Below are positions 3,701 through 20,071 of a stretch of DNA of 20,204 nucleotides, piece after piece. Location: IMG/VR virus record IMGVR_UViG_3300017782_004265, positions 1 to 20,204 of that record. One strand, given 5' to 3'. Made by a program: the position numbers and the translations under genes. Below the pieces are notes generated by a model, which had not been told where the DNA came from, searched no databases, and saw only the letters and a list, made by a program, of their open reading frames with translations. How positions within the stretch are numbered: the stretch's first letter is position 1; every line of letters starts with the position of its first letter. Source of the DNA: a virus.

Positions 3701-4268
3701 CGCAAGTTTAGTAAATGTAACAAACTTAAATGCTACAAATATAAACACAGGAACATTAGCCGCAGATCGTATTGCTACAAATGATTTAATATTACCTTCT
3801 AATGGTGCTAATAAAACTGCTGTAGGACCATTCCACGAAAACGATATGACCTATAAACATTTAGGTGATTTAGGCACTGGAGCAGGTTTTTATACAGGTT
3901 ATATAAGAGTGTTCAAAGGTTCATACCCCGGCCAAGTAAAAACAATCAGTTTCTTATTTGATGACGGCACACACGGTAGCGGTAGTAGTTATGATGTAAA
4001 TACAGCAAGTAACTTTTTTGATACACCGCAAATAAGCAGTAGTGCTTCACATTATATAACAGAAACACCATTGTTATATTATCTAACAGGCACACTTATA
4101 ACTGATAGTAGATTAAAATCAAATACTAACCAAGATACTGCTAATATTCCTTTTGCTTTCTTGTATACAGGCACAGGCACACCAAAATGCTTTATATACG
4201 CACAAGGAGACAGCAATAGTCAGTATATAGGTGGCAGTGAAGTTCATTTTGTTAAGTTTAGCACATAG
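708..4268 (+). CDS. Tail tip / central fibre protein, J-like, with C-terminal fibre repeats
   Basis: This 1186-residue protein resembles the lambda J-type tip attachment proteins that close the tail end and contact the receptor. A hydrophobic alanine- and glycine-rich N-terminus (about 8-52) is followed by VPVVYGHAFQNGII (about 83-96), a hallmark near the start of J-like proteins. The middle, about 285-480, contains the GVVNTAEDCRTTIDRLLTAC and GKWRV segments usual in the phage-tail_3 region. A fibronectin-III-like stretch follows at about 510-615 (GTYYYQTRVGNDEAFGDFS). From about 797 there are 31-residue GGTG repeats and then a low-complexity Thr/Ser/Gly shaft ending in a beta-rich head. It starts immediately after the acetyltransferase stop. 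The next gene's Shine-Dalgarno follows its own stop (TAGGAGATATAATG). The family call is by motif and size only. The fusion of a J-like base to a fibre shaft is discussed in the findings. Confidence 0.8.
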   Translation: MAIFSAIASTFNYFMWAITTTAGSLVGGQILAAQAAAALLTGAVVYGVGKGVGKMLMPDFPTGTTGLNSGTRVQLSPNTGYRVPVVYGHAFQNGIITDAAISSDNQTMTYVLTLGEKTSGTTTLGDIFWNDKKLVFDGGATSPNVTSTIDEDNTTSTDYANNVEVYVYDGDGDSANALRGSVDAYTLVNHWTNTEKNSGTIFAVIKVTFDPEAQLTGLGTMTFELTNSLDNPQEVLNDYLTNTRYGCSIPSADIDSTSLAALGTYSDELITYTDTGGSSATQKRYTINGVVNTAEDCRTTIDRLLTACNSFFTFDPSQGKWRVTANKAESTGSAFQFSDDNIISDLKFSSTALDAGYNSVEVEFPDKDQKDKSNYVTIDLPSNLRETNEPDNQMTIRMEFVNNNVQASYLANQQLRQTRDDLVVIFTADYTTMGVDAGDVVKLFEDQVYGQNDKLYRVLQTVEKEAEDGMITIEFTCLEYNADVYTVESITEFTPAPNSDISLFNRLGTPTQPTVDNERSLLSMPAFDVNSNTPASGIYTRAELWFDTQSNMSTKKLLDTFRSPTTIGTGTEVEFTIKGLASGTYYYQTRVGNDEAFGDFSTTSSAHNWTANVLINPITIIDGNQPVLGVSGGNIIVNTGSIGTTFLDSGVNANLALAANAVSAPTYNYFTTTNAAAPSNSVFNTAIGRNPIENDIVVATKTGDATVQKAYIHNGTSFVENTNFFSGGLVTDGTIGADAIVANSISTGKLDFTPITTIAGQTGATITAAQLSSGGLRLTNDSVATSLLNGTVGVGNGGTGRTTTSSYVADLNAAGLRLTSDVVDVAQGGTGRTTTSSYVADLSAAGLRLSSDVVGEAQGGTGTTSFSSALTAQGVGFVSGSNANLGSLASLDNITLAKVTDAGSLAALNSIGYNDSTLTGTLDETNGGTGQTSDSAYASHLGSQGLIVTEVAGDTGSVSAATIVAAGSILVADSNVTRNTNGGITQINGGVITTGTLDASLVNVTNLNATNINTGTLAADRIATNDLILPSNGANKTAVGPFHENDMTYKHLGDLGTGAGFYTGYIRVFKGSYPGQVKTISFLFDDGTHGSGSSYDVNTASNFFDTPQISSSASHYITETPLLYYLTGTLITDSRLKSNTNQDTANIPFAFLYTGTGTPKCFIYAQGDSNSQYIGGSEVHFVKFST
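3096..3303 (+). repeat. 93-bp in-frame tandem repeat encoding GGTG fibre units
   Basis: Units start at 3096, 3189 and 3282, so the period is 93 bp (31 codons), with two full copies and the beginning of a third. Each encodes GGTGRTTTSSYVADL-x-AAGLRL followed by a spacer. Copies differ mostly at third positions. A further isolated GGTG lies near 3487. GGTG units of this kind are common in trimeric phage fibres. Confidence 0.85.
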
Positions 4269-4605: not shown

Positions 4606-4630
4606 AAAAAAACACAAAATCGGATAAATA
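4606..4630 (+). promoter_or_regulatory. Late-type promoter (ACACAA-N5-GATAAATA) before the fibre genes
   Basis: ACACAA at 4611-4616 is separated by five bases from GATAAATA (4623-4630; ATAAATA 4624-4630). The spacing matches the copies at 12249 and on the minus strand at 20083. The 88-base gap between genes has room for it, and a good ribosome-binding site (AGGAG) precedes the next ATG. T4 late promoters carry TATAAATA as their -10; equating the two is inference. Confidence 0.6.
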
Positions 4631-4691
4631 CAAGTATAACAAAAAAGGCTACAATACCACAGTATTTTAGCAAGATCCTACAGGAGTCATT

Positions 4692-5204
4692 ATGTCAAGA
4701 TTATTAGACTGGAAAGCATTTATAGGCGGGGCAGATAATGTTATCGCAATGGATATGTTTCCACAAGAACAACAACAGTTTACATACCAGTTCGGTGCTG
4801 TAGACGTATCAACTTACACATGGGACATTGATTATCAAACAGTAGTGATAGATCAAGTTGCCTTCAATAGAAATACAGGCGAACCTAACTATACAGATTC
4901 AACAGTTACAGGGTATTTTACGGCTCAACAAGCAAATGTTGCCGCATACGTAAATACAACAGACGCCGCAAATGGTAATGTCACAGTAACAATACCATCA
5001 CAAAGATACACAGGTAAAATATTACCTAACAGTAGATTAAAAGTTCCTACTACAGTATTTTCTGTAAAATGGACAGATGGCAATACACCATCAGCAACAA
5101 ACCTACATAGATATATCATAAGTGAAAGATATACCGCAGAAGTGCCTATTGGAGATCCAACAACGGAAGCATCGGCACAGGGCGGATTTACAGCAATAAC
5201 ATAA
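4692..5204 (+). CDS. Unknown structural-type protein
   Basis: This 170-residue protein is the first gene after an internal late-type promoter and has a clear AGGAG site 7 bases before ATG. It begins MSRLLDWKAFIGGADNVIAM and continues as a beta-rich, Thr/Val/Asn-rich chain with few lysines and a single cysteine-free core, including DVSTYTWDIDYQTVVIDQVAF and VFSVKWTDGNTPSATNLHRY. The composition is typical of secreted or virion proteins. It sits 10 bases upstream of the giant fibre gene and shares its promoter, so a fibre-attachment, collar or neck component is a reasonable inference. I do not recognise the family. Confidence 0.78.
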   Translation: MSRLLDWKAFIGGADNVIAMDMFPQEQQQFTYQFGAVDVSTYTWDIDYQTVVIDQVAFNRNTGEPNYTDSTVTGYFTAQQANVAAYVNTTDAANGNVTVTIPSQRYTGKILPNSRLKVPTTVFSVKWTDGNTPSATNLHRYIISERYTAEVPIGDPTTEASAQGGFTAIT

Positions 5205-11991: not shown

Positions 11992-12225
11992 ATGAGTAGA
12001 ATCACCACAAAACAAGTCCATGATGAACTTAAAACGTTTATTGATCACAACTGTAAAGAACACAAACAACTTCATGCTCGTGTAACAGAACTTGGCAAAG
12101 CAGTAAAAGAAAACAGAACATTTTTCACTGACAGATTAGACAGACTGGATAACAGAATATGGATGATAATGGCACTTACGTTTACCACATTTGTAACATT
12201 ATTCGCAAGTCTAATGTTCACATAA
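11992..12225 (+). CDS. Coiled-coil plus C-terminal membrane anchor, XhlA/holin-like
   Basis: I take ATG 11992 as the start (77 residues) rather than a TTG four codons earlier. The protein begins with a polar helical part (MSRITTKQVHDELKTFIDHN) and a heptad-like coiled coil (LHARVTELGKAV, then FFTDRLDRLDNRI). It ends in one hydrophobic segment, IWMIMALTFTTFVTLFASLMF, at about 55-76. Small phage proteins with this topology include the XhlA-type haemolysin/holin accessory proteins that sit in the inner membrane and assist host lysis. No endolysin is visible nearby, so a lysis role is inferred from topology alone; a virion-associated membrane protein is the alternative. It is the last gene of the rightward virion block. 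Confidence 0.7.
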   Translation: MSRITTKQVHDELKTFIDHNCKEHKQLHARVTELGKAVKENRTFFTDRLDRLDNRIWMIMALTFTTFVTLFASLMFT

Positions 12226-12236
12226 ATCCGCAAAAA

Positions 12237-12255
12237 ACACAAAAACAGATAAATA
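12237..12255 (+). promoter_or_regulatory. Late-type promoter of candidate RNA 1
   Basis: ACACAA at 12237-12242, five bases, then GATAAATA at 12248-12255. GTAAC follows six bases later (12262), a conserved start-site-like sequence also found after the copies at 16502 and 20083. The first predicted stem of the downstream RNA begins exactly there. Confidence 0.6.
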
Positions 12256-12261
12256 TATAAT

Positions 12262-12460
12262 GTAACTGGTATAGTATGTTTTATCGAGCATACTTCACTA
12301 ACAACTGACGATTGGTCTCCGACGATGAAAGAGAACCAGTTACAGCACATAAAGGAACTGACCAAAGTTCAAATAATGTGCCATTTTATTTACATGACAC
12401 TTTAAGTGGCATAGTAGATTTTCCTAAAAAAAGTGAAAAGCACACTTCGGTGTGTTTTTT
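12262..12460 (+). ncRNA. Candidate structured RNA 1 (about 199 nt) with intrinsic terminator
   Basis: No convincing ORF lies here, yet paired segments are dense. P1 pairs GTAACTGGT (12262-12270) with ACCAGTTAC (12335-12343). Inside it P2 pairs AGTATG (12273-12278) with CATACT (12289-12294), and a short TCTC/GAGA helix (12316-12319, 12331-12334) abuts P1. Next to P1, P4 pairs GCACAT (12345-12350) with ATGTGC (12376-12381) and encloses GAACT/AGTTC (12355-12359, 12366-12370). A CACT/AGTG hairpin (12398-12408) follows, then the UUCG terminator. A promoter six bases before P1 and a terminator at the end make a self-contained transcription unit. No known RNA family is recognised. Pairings were found by eye and no folding energy was computed. 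Confidence 0.6.
12436..12460 (+). terminator. Rho-independent terminator with cUUCGg loop
   Basis: AAAAGCACAC (12436-12445), loop TTCG, then GTGTG and six T (12450-12460). The C(UUCG)G tetraloop is exceptionally stable, and the A run can pair with the T run. It ends candidate RNA 1 and would also stop read-through from the virion genes. Confidence 0.88.
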
Positions 12461-12471
12461 GCTGACTGCCC

Positions 12472-12498
12472 ATTATAAAGTGATAAATCACTTATAAT
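12472..12498. repeat. Inverted repeat upstream of the second RNA promoter
   Basis: ATTATAAAGTGAT (12472-12484) and ATCACTTATAAT (12487-12498) are complementary over 12 bp with one bulged A and a two-base centre. The element lies between the terminator of RNA 1 and the next ATAAATA. It could be a protein-binding palindrome acting on that promoter, or the end of an RNA. Confidence 0.5.
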
Positions 12499-12499
12499 A

Positions 12500-12507
12500 G
12501 ATAAATA
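12500..12507 (+). promoter_or_regulatory. Late-type promoter of candidate RNA 2
   Basis: GATAAATA (12500-12507) is followed six bases later by GTAGC (12514), a variant of the GTAAC start-site sequence. The ACACAA upstream box is absent; the 12472-12498 palindrome occupies that place. Confidence 0.5.
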
Positions 12508-12513
12508 CTTACT

Positions 12514-12708
12514 GTAGCAAAACTCATTCCACTAAGTTATGCCTAATCACATACTTGGATCATAATGATAAAGTTGCCAAACGAGAATCCACTAATCAAC
12601 CGGTTATAGATTCGTTCATAAAGTTTTGCTACACCCCTTTGCTGTTGGTAGAAGATCCTAATACTTAGTATTAACATCATAATGTAGCCATTAACTGCTA
12701 ACAGCAAA
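12514..12708 (+). ncRNA. Candidate structured RNA 2, two multibranched domains
   Basis: Domain 1 is closed by a perfect 12-bp helix, TGTAGCAAAACT (12513-12524) with AGTTTTGCTACA (12622-12633). Inside are AAGTTATG/CATACTT (12534-12541, 12550-12556, one bulge) and a long arm AACGA-GA-ATC/GATTCGTT (12580-12589, 12609-12616), tipped by TAATC-AACC-GGTTA. Domain 2 is closed by a 14-bp helix with two G-U pairs, TTTGCTGTTGGTAG (12638-12651) with CTGCTAACAGCAAA (12695-12708). It encloses TAATAC-TTA-GTATTA (12659-12673) and ACAT-CATA-ATGT (12674-12685). The closing helix of domain 1 begins at the predicted transcription start. No plus-strand terminator is evident after 12708, so the 3' end is uncertain. 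It is not a tRNA or a family I recognise. Confidence 0.58.
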
Positions 12709-12717
12709 CTTTACCCA

Positions 12718-12742
12718 TAAAAAAAGGCGCCTTGCGACGCCT
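12718..12742 (-). terminator. Terminator of the leftward gene 12761-13243
   Basis: Read on the minus strand, AGGCG, a loop of about eight bases and CGCCT are followed by a run of seven T. It lies 18 bases after the gene's stop. On the plus strand there is no T run, so it is directional. Confidence 0.8.
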
Positions 12743-12760
12743 AACGCAGAGAGGTTACGT

Positions 12761-13243
12761 TTATTCAAATACTGTTTTTAGTGGAACTAATGTTAAAGGA
12801 TAATCTTTATAACATGGTGTTATAAGTTGACCCTCTTTAGCCATACCAAATGCTACAGCATTTTTATACATAGTAGATTCTAACCATTCATCTACTTTTT
12901 TCCATTTAGCAGTAGTATCACTTTCTCCGGCGTCTTCTTCAAGTGTAAAATATTCCTTAGCCTGTTCATCAGTTACAGGTATATACTCATATACACTACT
13001 ACTTAGATTATCAAACTCATATATGTCAAACTCACATACGTCTGCCTCTTCAGTTAAAGGTATAATACCTTTATTGATATTATTATCTTTACATAACTGA
13101 TCAATATCGATCATAGGTTCTGTTGAAAAACCTCTTTCACTCCATTCCTCAGCAGTTAGATTTTGAGTCTCATTACTCGTAGAAACAAGAATCTCCTTTC
13201 CATTGATTTTTGAGACTTTACTGTCGTTTTCAAATGTTGCCAT
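12761..13243 (-). CDS. Unknown acidic protein, early-type cassette
   Basis: I place the start at ATG 13243 (160 residues, MATFENDSKV...), behind AAAGGA. An in-frame ATG at 13285 would coincide with the predicted transcript start and lie inside a conserved leader hairpin, so it is disfavoured. The protein is strongly acidic with many Glu/Asp (TAEEWSERG, EFDIYEFDN, YFTLEEDAGESDTTAKWKKV). It has no membrane segment and no known motif. It seems distantly related to the gene at 15958-16395: both begin MAT, have a short FEN/FDN strand, contain (E)Y-x-IP-(V/L)T-(D/K)EQ-x-x-EY, and end with a Trp/Lys-containing helix. It has its own sigma70-type promoter and terminator and is inverted within rightward late genes, a moron-like layout. 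Function unknown. Confidence 0.8.
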   Translation of the reverse strand: MATFENDSKVSKINGKEILVSTSNETQNLTAEEWSERGFSTEPMIDIDQLCKDNNINKGIIPLTEEADVCEFDIYEFDNLSSSVYEYIPVTDEQAKEYFTLEEDAGESDTTAKWKKVDEWLESTMYKNAVAFGMAKEGQLITPCYKDYPLTLVPLKTVFE

Positions 13244-13260
13244 TTTATTTTCCTTTAAAT

Positions 13261-13285
13261 ATGTCTTTGCTTTATTGCTAAACAT
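13261..13285 (-). promoter_or_regulatory. 5'-terminal mRNA hairpin, covarying with 16412-16438
   Basis: On the minus strand ATGTTT (13285-13280) pairs with AGACAT (13266-13261), including one T-G pair, around the 13-base loop AGCAATAAAGCAA. The same 13-base loop with a different but still complementary stem occurs before the gene at 15958-16395. The stem begins at the predicted +1. Such 5' hairpins can stabilise mRNA or bind a regulator. Confidence 0.65.
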
Positions 13286-13291
13286 ACAACT

Positions 13292-13319
13292 ATTATACTA
13301 CAGATCGCAAAACTGTCAA
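13292..13319 (-). promoter_or_regulatory. Sigma70-type promoter, TTGACA-N16-TATAAT
   Basis: Consensus -35 TTGACA (minus strand, 13319-13314) and consensus -10 TATAAT (13297-13292) with a 16-base spacer. Predicted start is near 13285, and it drives the gene ending at 12761. Both hexamers match the bacterial housekeeping consensus exactly, so early transcription by host polymerase is likely. Confidence 0.85.
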
Positions 13320-13360
13320 CGGGCAAAAACTAAAAAAACTGTAACATTTGACGTCATTTG

Positions 13361-13368
13361 TATAAATA
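13361..13368 (+). promoter_or_regulatory. Late-type promoter, exact TATAAATA
   Basis: TATAAATA (13361-13368) equals the T4 late -10 consensus and is followed by an A/T-rich start region. It would transcribe the 39-codon ORF at 13451 and the hairpin-rich stretch beyond. The ACACAA box is missing here. Confidence 0.5.
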
Positions 13369-13450
13369 CTTTTTGATTAAGGCATACATGGCATAACACA
13401 GAACCCTAAAACAAACAGAACATAAGACTTGTCCGTCGGATATAAGGACC

Positions 13451-13570
13451 ATGGCAAAAGTAGTGATTTCGGTAACTACACATGAGAAACAAAACTACAA
13501 GCACACTCCTGCTCAATGTAGTAATGTAAGACATCTTTCTGTTATGTCGCAAACATACGCATACGCATAA
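13451..13570 (+). CDS. Possible 39-residue small protein
   Basis: ATG at 13451 is preceded by AAGGA at only 4 bases and lies 80 bases downstream of an exact TATAAATA. It encodes MAKVVISVTTHEKQNYKHTP and a further 19 residues ending QTYAYA. There is no known domain. The ribosome-binding site could be hidden in a GTCC/GGAC hairpin (13431-13449), which would make translation conditional. Composition is plausible, but the ORF is short and alone, and the segment may instead be part of a long untranslated RNA. Confidence 0.35.
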   Translation: MAKVVISVTTHEKQNYKHTPAQCSNVRHLSVMSQTYAYA

Positions 13571-13573
13571 ACA

Positions 13574-13860
13574 CTTATAATAGTTACACGAGATTATAAG
13601 GCACATTTATAATGTGTTGTTGATGTAGGTTGGAAAAGGTCAAAGTCCATTGCGTAGTATGTATAAAAATAAAATACCTATTGTTTGAACAGGCTGTGAT
13701 ACTCACATAATGAGACAGCAGGAAGACACTTCAATAGTGTTTTCTTGACTGAAATATCTACATAATAAGTTCTAATAAGGTTCGAGAGAACAAACAAACA
13801 AGCAACTACACGAGTGTTAACGAGTGTTTGCTGTTTGTTTTGTGTGAACGTAGTTCGCAC
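13574..13860 (+). other. Hairpin-rich non-coding stretch
   Basis: I see no convincing gene between 13571 and 13938. The stretch holds a series of local helices: CTTATAAT/ATTATAAG (13574-13600), CACAT/ATGTG (13602-13616), and AAGACACT/AGTGTTTT followed by CTT (13723-13745, terminator-like). Further on are GTTC-GAGA-GAAC, a GNRA loop (13780-13791), a long A/C-rich with T/G-rich helix ending in GCAA/TTGC (about 13790-13843), and GTGTGAAC-GTA-GTTCGCAC (13842-13860). It lies downstream of TATAAATA at 13361 and could be a third structured RNA or a long leader of the gene at 13939. Pairings were found by eye. Confidence 0.45.
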
Positions 13861-13938
13861 ATTAATAATAAGTATATGATACCACATAAAACACTATAAT
13901 CCTGCTGTGGAGTGTAAATAGATACTGTAGGAGTAACT

Positions 13939-14205
13939 ATGAGTAATGAAAAATACATACCCAGTATACCTCGTTTCAGCACAAGTGGTATAGCAGAGCA
14001 ACATCAACATTGGGCAAGAAGTTTAACAGAACCTTTTAGCAGACAACAAAATGCCACATTAAAGTGGTTATTGGAAACAAAACCCATGGAACAACGTCCA
14101 TATGTTATCATAGAAGACAAACGTGTATTATGTGGCACTAAACGTAAACTATACACCAAAACAGCCGCAGGATGGCGTATACAGAGTTTAAAAACAGTCA
14201 AATAG
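13939..14205 (+). CDS. Unknown basic protein before the small terminase
   Basis: This 88-residue protein has an AGGAG site 7 bases before ATG (GTAGGAGTAACTATG). It is basic and soluble (MSNEKYIPSIPRFSTSGIAEQHQHWARSL, then a C-terminal strand-rich part YVIIEDKRVLCGTKRKLYTKTAAGW). The C-terminal half, with alternating strands and Lys/Arg, could bind nucleic acid. Its stop overlaps the sequence before the next GATAAATA promoter, so it has a separate transcription unit from the terminase small subunit. The likely promoter is unclear: GTAAATA (13914-13920) and TATAAT (13895-13900) are both imperfect. I do not recognise the family. Confidence 0.78.
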   Translation: MSNEKYIPSIPRFSTSGIAEQHQHWARSLTEPFSRQQNATLKWLLETKPMEQRPYVIIEDKRVLCGTKRKLYTKTAAGWRIQSLKTVK

Positions 14206-14213
14206 GATAAATA
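14206..14213 (+). promoter_or_regulatory. Late-type promoter of the small terminase unit
   Basis: GATAAATA (14206-14213) starts within one base of the previous stop. The upstream A-rich part resembles the other copies loosely. The next gene begins 39 bases on with AGGAG before ATG. Confidence 0.55.
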
Positions 14214-14251
14214 TACAAGCATACAGTTTAAACTGATTACAGGAGACATCT

Positions 14252-14689
14252 ATGTCAAATGAACATGAAAAACCCACAGACAACTTGACAGAATATGCCG
14301 AACAGCATAAGCCATATCAAGTTACTAAAATAAAATACGGCGAAAAAACAGTCACAGGCAGAATAGTAGGCAGAGCAAAAACAGTCATCCCCGAGCAAGA
14401 GTTCTATCAAATGGCATGCTTGTTCTCAACATGGAAAGACTTTAGCGAGTATTATTCAGTGCCGGAGAGCACACTCCGAGACAACTTTCGCGACTTATAC
14501 ACAAAAGCACGACAGAAAACGAAACAAAAACTACGTCAAAAAATGTTGGAAACAGCACTCAATGGTGACAGAGTCATGATGATTTGGCTCTCGAAGCAAT
14601 GGCTGGACATGACTGATTCTCCAGTAAAAGGATCGGACAGTGACGTATTACCATGGAATGAGGAGACAACAAATGAAATGGAAGAATAA
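14252..14689 (+). CDS. Terminase small subunit candidate (DNA-binding)
   Basis: This 145-residue protein has a helix-turn-helix at about 51-82 (FYQMACLFSTWKDFSEYYSV then PESTLRDNF). A long basic helix follows (TKARQKTKQKLRQKMLETAL), then NGDRVMMIWLSKQWLDMTDS at 104-123. The last segment is the 'aLIWLGKQwLGqsd' signature that many phage terminase small subunits carry after their HTH; here the glycine is changed to serine. It would recognise packaging sites and pass DNA to the large terminase encoded about 2 kb downstream. A GGAG site precedes ATG, and the gene overlaps the following membrane peptide by 17 bases. The family assignment rests on these motifs; a transcription regulator with the same HTH is the alternative. 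Confidence 0.75.
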   Translation: MSNEHEKPTDNLTEYAEQHKPYQVTKIKYGEKTVTGRIVGRAKTVIPEQEFYQMACLFSTWKDFSEYYSVPESTLRDNFRDLYTKARQKTKQKLRQKMLETALNGDRVMMIWLSKQWLDMTDSPVKGSDSDVLPWNEETTNEMEE

Positions 14690-15238: not shown

Positions 15239-15466
15239 TTAAGCAAACACTCCTTCGTTAACTATGCCCTCTTCTATTACTTCTTCGGCAATCCATTGTT
15301 TGCCATCTTCTTCTACTATAACTTTTGGATCAGTAATATAATAATCGATCTCCATATCGAAGTGAGCAAAACTATCTGCTTTCAGTTGCTCTATGTTGTC
15401 GCCTTTACTTACTGGATAGTATTGATCTTCTCTGTCTCCCCATCCTTTAACATTTAATATAAACAT
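15239..15466 (-). CDS. Unknown small acidic protein, early-type cassette
   Basis: This 75-residue protein starts at ATG 15466 behind GGAG at 7 bases. It begins with a strand (MFILNVKGWGDREDQYYPVS), has a helix GDNIEQLKADSFAHFDMEID, and ends with acidic strands (KVIVEEDGKQWIAEEVIEEG). The arrangement suggests a small alpha/beta domain. It carries its own TTGACA/TATACT promoter that overlaps the end of the gene upstream. No known family. Small acidic early proteins of phages often bind host enzymes, but nothing here shows a target. Confidence 0.75.
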   Translation of the reverse strand: MFILNVKGWGDREDQYYPVSKGDNIEQLKADSFAHFDMEIDYYITDPKVIVEEDGKQWIAEEVIEEGIVNEGVFA

Positions 15467-15473
15467 ATTTTAT

Positions 15474-15506
15474 CTCCTTTATTTAAAATATACATATAGT
15501 ATACTA
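15474..15506 (-). repeat. 33-bp direct repeat, copy 1 (promoter -10 to Shine-Dalgarno)
   Basis: The 33 bases 15474-15506 are identical to 15847-15879. The repeat covers the -10 box, the transcription start and the AAAGGAG site, so two adjacent genes have the same core leader. This points to duplication of a promoter-leader unit. Confidence 0.9.
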
Positions 15507-15525
15507 TACTTTTAATCTGTGTCAA
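15498..15525 (-). promoter_or_regulatory. Sigma70-type promoter, TTGACA-N16-TATACT
   Basis: -35 TTGACA at 15525-15520 and -10 TATACT at 15503-15498 on the minus strand, with a 16-base spacer. It drives the gene 15239-15466. Most of the region downstream is duplicated at 15847-15879. Confidence 0.85.
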
Positions 15526-15527
15526 CC

Positions 15528-15836
15528 TTAGATTATTGTAAAATATTTCATTTTGCGTCTAACTTTTGGGTTTGTCGCATTTTCATATCTTTGTATGTGT
15601 ATAACATTTTCGGCTTCCATCTCCAATATCGCACACTTCACCCTACATAATGTAACCCCGGCGAGTTTATTTTGATATGTAAGCAACGCATGTAACTGCG
15701 GTTTACTATATTTCTTTTTGCGCCATCCATTTTTTTCTAATATATCGATAGTTGTGAGTATTTCTCTTTTTATATCGGATATAGATGCTCTATTTGCCTT
15801 ATATTCTTTATATTCTTCATTTGTCATTTTTTCCAT
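15528..15836 (-). CDS. Unknown basic helical protein, early-type cassette
   Basis: This 102-residue protein starts at ATG 15836 with GGAG about 10 bases upstream; an in-frame ATG three codons later is an alternative. It is basic and largely helical: MTNEEYKEYKANRASISDIK, an ILTTIDILEKNGWRKKKYSK segment, then LHALLTYQNKLAGVTLCRVK. The end is an Arg/Lys-rich tail (NPKVRRKMKYF). It could bind nucleic acid, but no defined fold is recognised. It has its own sigma70-type promoter. Its stop lies only two bases from the -35 of the next leftward promoter, and no terminator is seen between them. Confidence 0.75.
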   Translation of the reverse strand: MEKMTNEEYKEYKANRASISDIKREILTTIDILEKNGWRKKKYSKPQLHALLTYQNKLAGVTLCRVKCAILEMEAENVIHIQRYENATNPKVRRKMKYFTII

Positions 15837-15846
15837 ATTTTATTAA

Positions 15847-15879
15847 CTCCTTTATTTAAAATATACATATAGTATACTA
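15847..15879 (-). repeat. 33-bp direct repeat, copy 2
   Basis: Identical to 15474-15506. It holds the -10 box and Shine-Dalgarno of the gene 15528-15836. Confidence 0.9.
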
Positions 15880-15898
15880 CATTTTTTATCTGCGTCAA
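15871..15898 (-). promoter_or_regulatory. Sigma70-type promoter, TTGACG-N16-TATACT
   Basis: -35 TTGACG at 15898-15893 and -10 TATACT at 15876-15871 on the minus strand, spacer 16. The spacer begins CAGATAAAAAA, as does that of the promoter at 16443-16470. Confidence 0.82.
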
Positions 15899-15911
15899 CC
15901 TCGCTATCGGT

Positions 15912-15957: not shown

Positions 15958-16395
15958 TTAAGCAACTTCTATATAGTTGATTTGCTCTTTCATTTCTGCT
16001 AAAGTATATACTCCGCCAAAACGAAACAAATCTTTTGTTATTTTAAGAGTAGGTTCTAATGCTAAAGCATTGTCTTTCATCCATTTTATTTGCTTTTCTA
16101 TAGCAAACTCCTCACTATCGACCATTGCTTGATCTCCAATGCCAGCATTTGGACATACATTCATTACAGCACAATCTTCTATATATTCTGCTGTTTGCTC
16201 TTTAGTTAACGGAATAAAACTATATTCGAATAAATCACGTTGTTCGTCAGTATTATATTCGACTTCTATACAGTATGTATATCCCGCATCTACTAATGCG
16301 TCTATAGTTTTATTTTGATCTATTACTTCATGAGTAACAGTTTTCTTCTCTTTTACGATTTTTAAGACTTCGTTGTCAAAAGTTAATGTCGCCAT
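15958..16395 (-). CDS. Unknown acidic protein, early-type cassette, paralogue of 12761-13243
   Basis: This 145-residue protein starts at ATG 16395 behind AAAGGA. It begins MATLTFDNEVLKIVKEKKTV, has IDALVDAGYTYCIEVEYNTD and FEYSFIPLTKEQTAEYIEDC, and ends with a KQIKWMKDNALALEP helix and a charged tail. The order and several motifs parallel the gene at 12761-13243, and their leaders share a 13-base loop, so they are probably ancient duplicates. Three cysteines and no membrane segment; no known family. It is flanked by a sigma70-type promoter and a strong terminator, i.e. a self-contained leftward cassette within rightward late genes. Confidence 0.8.
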   Translation of the reverse strand: MATLTFDNEVLKIVKEKKTVTHEVIDQNKTIDALVDAGYTYCIEVEYNTDEQRDLFEYSFIPLTKEQTAEYIEDCAVMNVCPNAGIGDQAMVDSEEFAIEKQIKWMKDNALALEPTLKITKDLFRFGGVYTLAEMKEQINYIEVA

Positions 16396-16411
16396 TTTTC
16401 TTTCCTTTAAT

Positions 16412-16438
16412 ATACGTTTTGCTTTATTGCTAACGTAT
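16412..16438 (-). promoter_or_regulatory. 5'-terminal mRNA hairpin, covarying with 13261-13285
   Basis: On the minus strand ATACGTT (16438-16432) pairs with AACGTAT (16418-16412) around the loop AGCAATAAAGCAA, identical to the loop at 13267-13279. The stem bases differ from the other copy but remain paired. The predicted start (about 16436) lies at the base of the stem. Confidence 0.65.
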
Positions 16439-19360: not shown

Positions 19361-20037
19361 AATGTTATTATTGTGTTATCACTTTCAAACAATGTTTCAT
19401 CTGCTAAAGTTTTTGAATACTCTATAAAATGAACAGGATACAATGGCGGATTTGCTTTACCATTGCTTTTTTTAAATCCTATGTCTTGATCTGTAAGTAT
19501 GTCGTTGTAACCTTTTAGGAAAAACCAACTCATCCAAAAAACATGCTCTATCATTTTAAGTTGGCTTTTAAGATACTTTGGATCTTCACCGTTACGCAAA
19601 AAGTTAATGCGTAAACCACTTATCATTGTGAGTGTGCTGTTTGCTGTTCCTACTGCTTCATGTGTGCTGTAATGATTAACAGGTTGTAGCATGTGATTAA
19701 ACATTTGTCCTGCGTATTGTATATGTTTGTGGCATATTTCATTTTCCAATCTTGTGAGCCAATATTCTATATATGCGGCATCGCCTTTAGTAAAGTTTAC
19801 AAACAGTTCATCTTTGTTGTTTTTGTCGTATGTGTATGGTATAACAAAATGTTCTACATCTAACCAACTGTCTAACTCATGTGGCATAACTGCTGTTAAA
19901 AGTGGATCTGTTACACTTATATAATGATTAAGCCAACCTGTAGCATGTTCTTTTTTACCACTGGTTCTTATAGTGCCTTTTTGAACATAACGTTGATAAC
20001 GTTTTCTTTGTTTTTGTGATTTTCTTTTCTTTGTCAT
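19357..20037 (-). CDS. Unknown protein with a very basic N-terminus
   Basis: I place the start at ATG 20037 (226 residues) with GAGG at 6-7 bases; the open frame extends to a TTG at 20055 without a good site. The N-terminus is extremely basic (MTKKRKSQKQRKRYQRYVQK) and may bind nucleic acid. The rest is a soluble helical domain with aromatic and histidine residues (HELDSWLDVEHFVIPYTYDK, CHKHIQYAGQMFNHML, MIEHVFWMSWFFLKGYNDIL). No motif is recognised. It is the first gene after a leftward GATAAATA promoter and is coupled to the two-HTH gene by ATGA. Confidence 0.78.
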   Translation of the reverse strand: MTKKRKSQKQRKRYQRYVQKGTIRTSGKKEHATGWLNHYISVTDPLLTAVMPHELDSWLDVEHFVIPYTYDKNNKDELFVNFTKGDAAYIEYWLTRLENEICHKHIQYAGQMFNHMLQPVNHYSTHEAVGTANSTLTMISGLRINFLRNGEDPKYLKSQLKMIEHVFWMSWFFLKGYNDILTDQDIGFKKSNGKANPPLYPVHFIEYSKTLADETLFESDNTIITL

Positions 20038-20071
20038 AATAACCTCTGTTGCCAAATAACTTTGTTGTTAC

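Follow-up and report, generated by a model that had tools for sequence, protein, structure and literature searches.

The structured region that follows a promoter-like box at position 12,500 of the window (the whole 20 kb IMG/VR virus record analyzed here, 20,204 nt) is best described as a new phage small-RNA family with an optional second module, lying within a cluster of non-coding RNAs. Judged from sequence comparison, the first domain of this region (RNA 2) belongs to a family of phage small RNAs that Rfam does not contain. At least 14 distinct versions of the family were found in aquatic phage contigs, some of them mutually unrelated, with RNA lengths of 62-169 nt. The comparison establishes conserved structure and gene layout, whereas transcription and function are inferred.

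The large terminase encoded by the window shares about 45% identity with those of pelagiphages and of phage DSL-LC06, and a close relative, G005, encodes a siphovirus-type portal, tape-measure, and tail protein. The RNAs sit 3′ of a 77 aa gene and 5′ of the terminase gene. The 77 aa product had no Pfam match; by eye, it looks like a helical stretch with a membrane segment. The features discussed below are as follows.

12248..12461, plus strand: RNA 1, a neighboring structured RNA (own GATAAATA box at 12248-12255, fold, terminator-like hairpin)
12500..12507, plus strand: GATAAATA promoter-like box of RNA 2 (14/14 homologues have the box 3-5 nt upstream of the RNA start)
12513..12633, plus strand: domain 1, assigned to the UGUAG/UUGCCA small-RNA family (fold, covariation, homologues)
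12513..12524, plus strand: P1 closing helix, 5′ strand (pairs with 12622-12633; covariation in 14 members and in 7 not helix-selected)
12532..12558, plus strand: P2 hairpin, variable in sequence and length (MFE fold of window and relatives)
12573..12582, plus strand: small hairpin GUU-GCCA-AAC with invariant UUGCCA at 12574-12579 (motif 14/14, hairpin 13/14)
12585..12613, plus strand: further domain 1 hairpin, optional in relatives (folds)
12622..12633, plus strand: P1 closing helix, 3′ strand (covariation)
12638..12708, plus strand: domain 2, optional module closed by a 14 bp helix (four homologues, 100% of cells paired)
12680..12693, plus strand: domain 2 tip UAAUG-UAGC-CAUUA with invariant AUGUAGCCAU (fold, alignment)
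20048..20056, minus strand: candidate target site UUUGGCAAC, within the leader of a gene on that strand (ATG at 20037; complements the domain 1 loop perfectly over 9 nt)

The original prediction described two domains, each closed by a long helix and each containing further hairpins. Reading the sequence bore out both the 12 bp perfect helix (TGTAGCAAAACT at 12513-12524 with AGTTTTGCTACA at 12622-12633) and the 14 bp helix (TTTGCTGTTGGTAG at 12638-12651 with CTGCTAACAGCAAA at 12695-12708), the latter with exactly two G-U pairs, and the MFE fold returned both long helices together with the inner hairpins. The folding test proposed at that stage placed the RNA 2 region far below shuffled sequences (MFE -51 kcal/mol compared to -30.9 ± 3.7 for shuffles, z = -5.41), with 0/200 shuffles equaling it. 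Domain 1 folded alone gave z = -4.0 against shuffles, and 13 homologues gave z from -3.4 to -7.4. A coding reading of RNA 2 was rejected, as open frames are not kept between homologues and lengths vary.

Relatives were gathered by scans with the terminase and the neighboring 126 aa gene. Reading of the syntenic region found the layout of the window in G004 (L106), G013 (L119), G006 (L109), G005 (L108), G008 (L111), and G010 (L112). Pattern scans followed by a closing-helix test added L207, L217 (to which L197 is near-identical), L133, L177, L384, and L431, and the same test picked L045 from terminase loci. Most search patterns included the KATAAATA box. Of 253 promoter-plus-TGTAG sites with a downstream TTGCCA, 14 pass the helix test, compared to a mean of 1.4 and a maximum of 5 for decoys. 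Because the head genes of L384 belong to other families, the domain 1 RNA is common to unrelated phages.

Several candidates did not hold. Two hits of the initial pattern scan, L090 and L092, were dropped as coding-like sequence in which the motif is absent; L194 and L386 passed the helix test yet were judged false; and among the at least 116 stretches listed from bacterial genomes, the one that passed lies on a Bacteroidales contig and was judged a chance match. The last viral scan brought no additional accepted family members. Named phage isolates gave no meaningful nucleotide match; the promoter-plus-TGTA signature is absent from HTVC026P and HTVC112P, and DSL-LC06 has a single such site. 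Rfam 15 returned no match at gathering level across the whole window, none with E up to 1 in 12200-14300, and none at gathering level in six loci with homologues, and ARAGORN detected no tRNA or tmRNA.

In 14/14 homologues, UGUAG opens the RNA 3-5 nt after GATAAATA or TATAAATA, and the 3′ closure is CUACA, with CUACG once. P1, which seals the RNA at a blunt 5′ end, is 10-18 bp long across the family, its sequence turned over and its pairing held. The covariance test suggested by the original prediction found that 14 distinct sequences retain the 12 bp helix, with numerous compensatory changes: 97% of cells are paired, 7/12 scored pairs are changed on both sides, and the covariation score is 0.66 compared to 0.18 for shuffled and at most 0.18 for slid sequences. 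Some of the 14 members had been selected for the P1 helix. In the seven that had not, 82/84 P1 cells are paired, whereas shuffled partners give 65.5 (p = 0.0016). Loss of the long helices in homologues had been named in advance as grounds for abandoning the structured RNA reading; they are maintained, which supports it.

The second hallmark of the family is the UUGCCA motif, present in 14/14 members (for six of them, the search pattern included it) and enclosed by a small hairpin in 13/14. The enclosing stems differ, as in GUU/AAC, AAAUGU/ACAUUU, and AGACUU/AAGUCU; in L133, folded with GCC unpaired, no stem encloses UUGCCA. Compared to flank shuffles, each hairpin is weak alone, that of the window (12573-12582) having p = 0.18, but jointly they outperform the shuffles, with a Fisher combined p of about 1e-6 drawn from relatives that are not independent. 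The window RNA thus shows the box-to-UGUAG spacing, a covarying P1 of at least 10 bp (UGUAG...CUACA), and the UUGCCA-tipped hairpin by which membership is defined.

The idea of a two-domain RNA was supported, with one refinement. Both helices are kept where present, but the two domains are not one fixed unit: most relatives are without domain 2, which is present only in the window, G004, G006, and G013. In these four sequences, the 14 bp helix persists and every cell pairs; two pairs are changed on both sides and three on one side. The two G-U pairs that had been singled out are replaced in relatives by A-U or G-C, and by C-G. With four sequences, the shuffle control is modest, 34/500 shuffles reaching the covariation score. 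ATGTAGCCAT is invariant in domain 2. We take domain 2 to be an optional second module whose tip (AUGUAGCCAU) is related to that of domain 1.

The suggestion that the locus is a cluster of non-coding RNAs gained support from the upstream RNA 1, which has its own box, a conserved fold, and a terminator-like hairpin. RNA 1 includes a P1 helix (TGTAACTGGT/ACCAGTTACA) and a TTTTATCGAGC hairpin, and is conserved in at least six relatives. Other elements were noticed along the way. After a TATAAATA box, 13361-13938 forms a third, mostly non-coding element that begins ATGGCATAACACAGAACCCTA, holds the two-codon frame AUG GCA UAA, and is 74-88% identical to relatives across long stretches, with no Rfam match. 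A stretch GGTTRGCGGGCCAG...ATACCGCTGTG, common to unrelated contigs (L045 at about 3820-4000, the L177 contig (L459), and L112 at about 1990), is possibly another structured RNA, 3′ of the small RNA. The leader of a 170 aa gene (4623-4692) is nearly unchanged in the window, G004, and G006 (CAAGTATAACAAAAAAGGCTACAATACCACAGTATT), and it contains GGCTACA, the complement of UGUAGCC at the tip of domain 2. Two pairs of related stretches lie at genes on the minus strand: 13205-13281 with 16357-16433 (78%) and 15464-15528 with 15834-15901 (90% identical). They suggest repeated promoter and leader cassettes.

The GATAAATA box of RNA 2 ends 5 nt upstream of the first helix, at which the RNA would start (12513). 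As a bare octamer with at most one mismatch, it is no commoner than chance within the window; what makes it a convincing promoter is its recurrence in relatives, at one and the same short spacing from structured 5′ ends and gene starts. It resembles T4-type late promoters (TATAAATA) in that a KATAAATA box lies a few bases upstream of the presumed start and, as in those promoters, also precedes head and packaging genes. Unlike in the T4 setting, the box here belongs to a siphovirus-type phage. In seven relatives (L045, L177, L217, L431, G010, L207, and L133), reading of the sequence revealed a terminator-like hairpin after domain 1; together with the box, this is the layout of a putative stand-alone small RNA gene. 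In the window, domain 2 follows domain 1, and no plus-strand terminator-like site was found after domain 2; the hairpin at 12725-12742 is oriented as the terminator of a minus-strand gene. A downstream intrinsic terminator was not treated as defining for the family.

Of the mechanisms we considered, the most likely, which we put forward tentatively, is that of a trans antisense RNA controlling the translation of phage transcripts. The RNA would be a late product of infection, and its double-stranded 5′ end may make it long-lived. Its exposed loop would pair over about 7-10 nt with GGCA(A) motifs in phage transcripts, at or near ribosome-binding sites or start codons, and this pairing would lower or time translation of the target transcripts. 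In the window phage, the best candidate target would be the gene 20037-19357(-).

Candidate target sites were sought as complements of the loop in gene leaders. The 9 nt UUUGGCAAC is the longest match in the window between the domain 1 loop and any leader, and it adjoins the Shine-Dalgarno sequence of the gene 20037-19357(-). Its GGCAAC is kept in the leader of this gene in G006 and G005 (proteins 65 and 58% identical) and occurs also in the leader of a distant counterpart gene (about 30% identical) in G008 and G009; outside GGCAAC, the leader of the 20037(-) gene diverges. Among 42 distinct promoter-linked leaders, GGCAAC occurs 6 times compared to 0.26 expected and its complement GTTGCC 0 times, the six leaders coming largely from related genes. 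The next transcript matches the phage's own loop over 10 nt in L177, 10 nt in G010, and 8 nt in L045, and these loops differ. The own-loop/next-leader test gave p of about 0.009, although it is narrower and partly post hoc, some leaders having been picked after inspection. In the window itself, the match of domain 1 to the next leader is poor, at 5 nt. A broad specificity test across all leaders found own loops no better than loops from other phages, and the variable base beside the loop tracks leaders in only 11/30 cases. With a loop invariant in unrelated phages, a conserved partner would fit better than phage-specific targets.

Such a partner could be a protein. Close behind antisense control, and a serious rival to it, is a protein-binding decoy or scaffold, in which the UUGCCA hairpin is recognized by a phage or host RNA-binding protein that is titrated or positioned in a CsrB-type manner; we regard this as possible but doubtful. 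Sponge RNAs of the CsrB/RsmZ type show a repeated short motif in hairpin loops. Their motif is GGA, whereas here it is UUGCCA, as a rule present once in each RNA, and neighboring modules have related tips. The invariance of UUGCCA in phages with unrelated head genes speaks for a decoy, as do the related GCC tips that recur in domain 2, in RNA 1, and in the second hairpins of L207 and L133. In L384, the gene that follows the small RNA also has a sense UUGCC hairpin in its leader (L462 (G016), about 2670-2690), like an mRNA operator, but this sense copy was seen in one phage only. A decoy would, moreover, leave the GGCAAC enrichment in leaders unexplained. We think it unlikely that host rather than phage transcripts are involved, with the small RNA pairing with, or mimicking, a host RNA or mRNAs, for example at start regions reading AUGGCAA: the loop is invariant in unrelated phages, and UUGCCAU (L045, L177, L384, and L431) is the complement of AUGGCAA, which reads as a start codon followed by an alanine codon, yet this complement is short and common.

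Two further readings start from gene position and from the ends of the element. The presence of terminase genes downstream of the RNA in the window clade would suit a structural or packaging RNA, like the pRNA of phi29. However, in L384 the RNA is more than 6 kb from the terminase gene, which is on the other strand, and the small size, variable architecture, and lack of a sequence or Rfam match make this role very improbable. We give least credence of all, next to none, to a DNA-level inverted repeat of a mobile element. The TGTAG start and CTACA end of the P1 strands could be those of terminal inverted repeats, but copies in different phages share almost nothing beyond UGUAG and UUGCCA where near-identical copies would be expected; copies are also positioned a few bases after a promoter box, and some members use G-U pairs.

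Antisense control, the preferred reading, has precedents in phages. The sar RNA of P22 and the OOP RNA of lambda pair over long perfect complements, being encoded opposite or overlapping their targets. Any pairing by domain 1 would, in contrast, span 7-10 nt, with the site elsewhere in the genome. Both sar and OOP are small phage-encoded antisense RNAs acting on phage mRNAs (PMC12197685). For the mode of action proposed here, the closest parallel would be the c4 RNA of phages P1 and P7, which works in trans as an antisense RNA of 77 nt; its short complementary stretches are believed to be displayed in loops and to prevent translation around the ribosome-binding site (PMC12197685). Whereas c4 targets the mRNA for an antirepressor of a temperate phage, the target of domain 1 is only predicted; we see no evidence for common descent of the two. 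As a structured RNA, the family may be set beside GOLLD and ROOL, metagenome candidates recognized by covariation, some of them in phages (PMC2864571, PMC12286853). It shares with them its recognition by covariation as a non-coding RNA, and differs in that the domain 1 RNA is only 62-169 nt long and has no Rfam 15 match.

To our knowledge, lytic phages of non-model hosts have yielded few descriptions of trans-acting RNAs. The domain 1 family is a candidate addition to Rfam, which has no model for it. Its members can be recognized by a short descriptor and occur in phages whose head genes are unrelated, which points to a conserved partner. More speculatively, unrelated aquatic phages might share a compact late RNA, built as a blunt-ended stem that displays UUGCCA in a loop, which times the translation of several late mRNAs through a GGCA(A) leader mark, which would amount to a shared post-transcriptional code and not to one-to-one antisense pairing.
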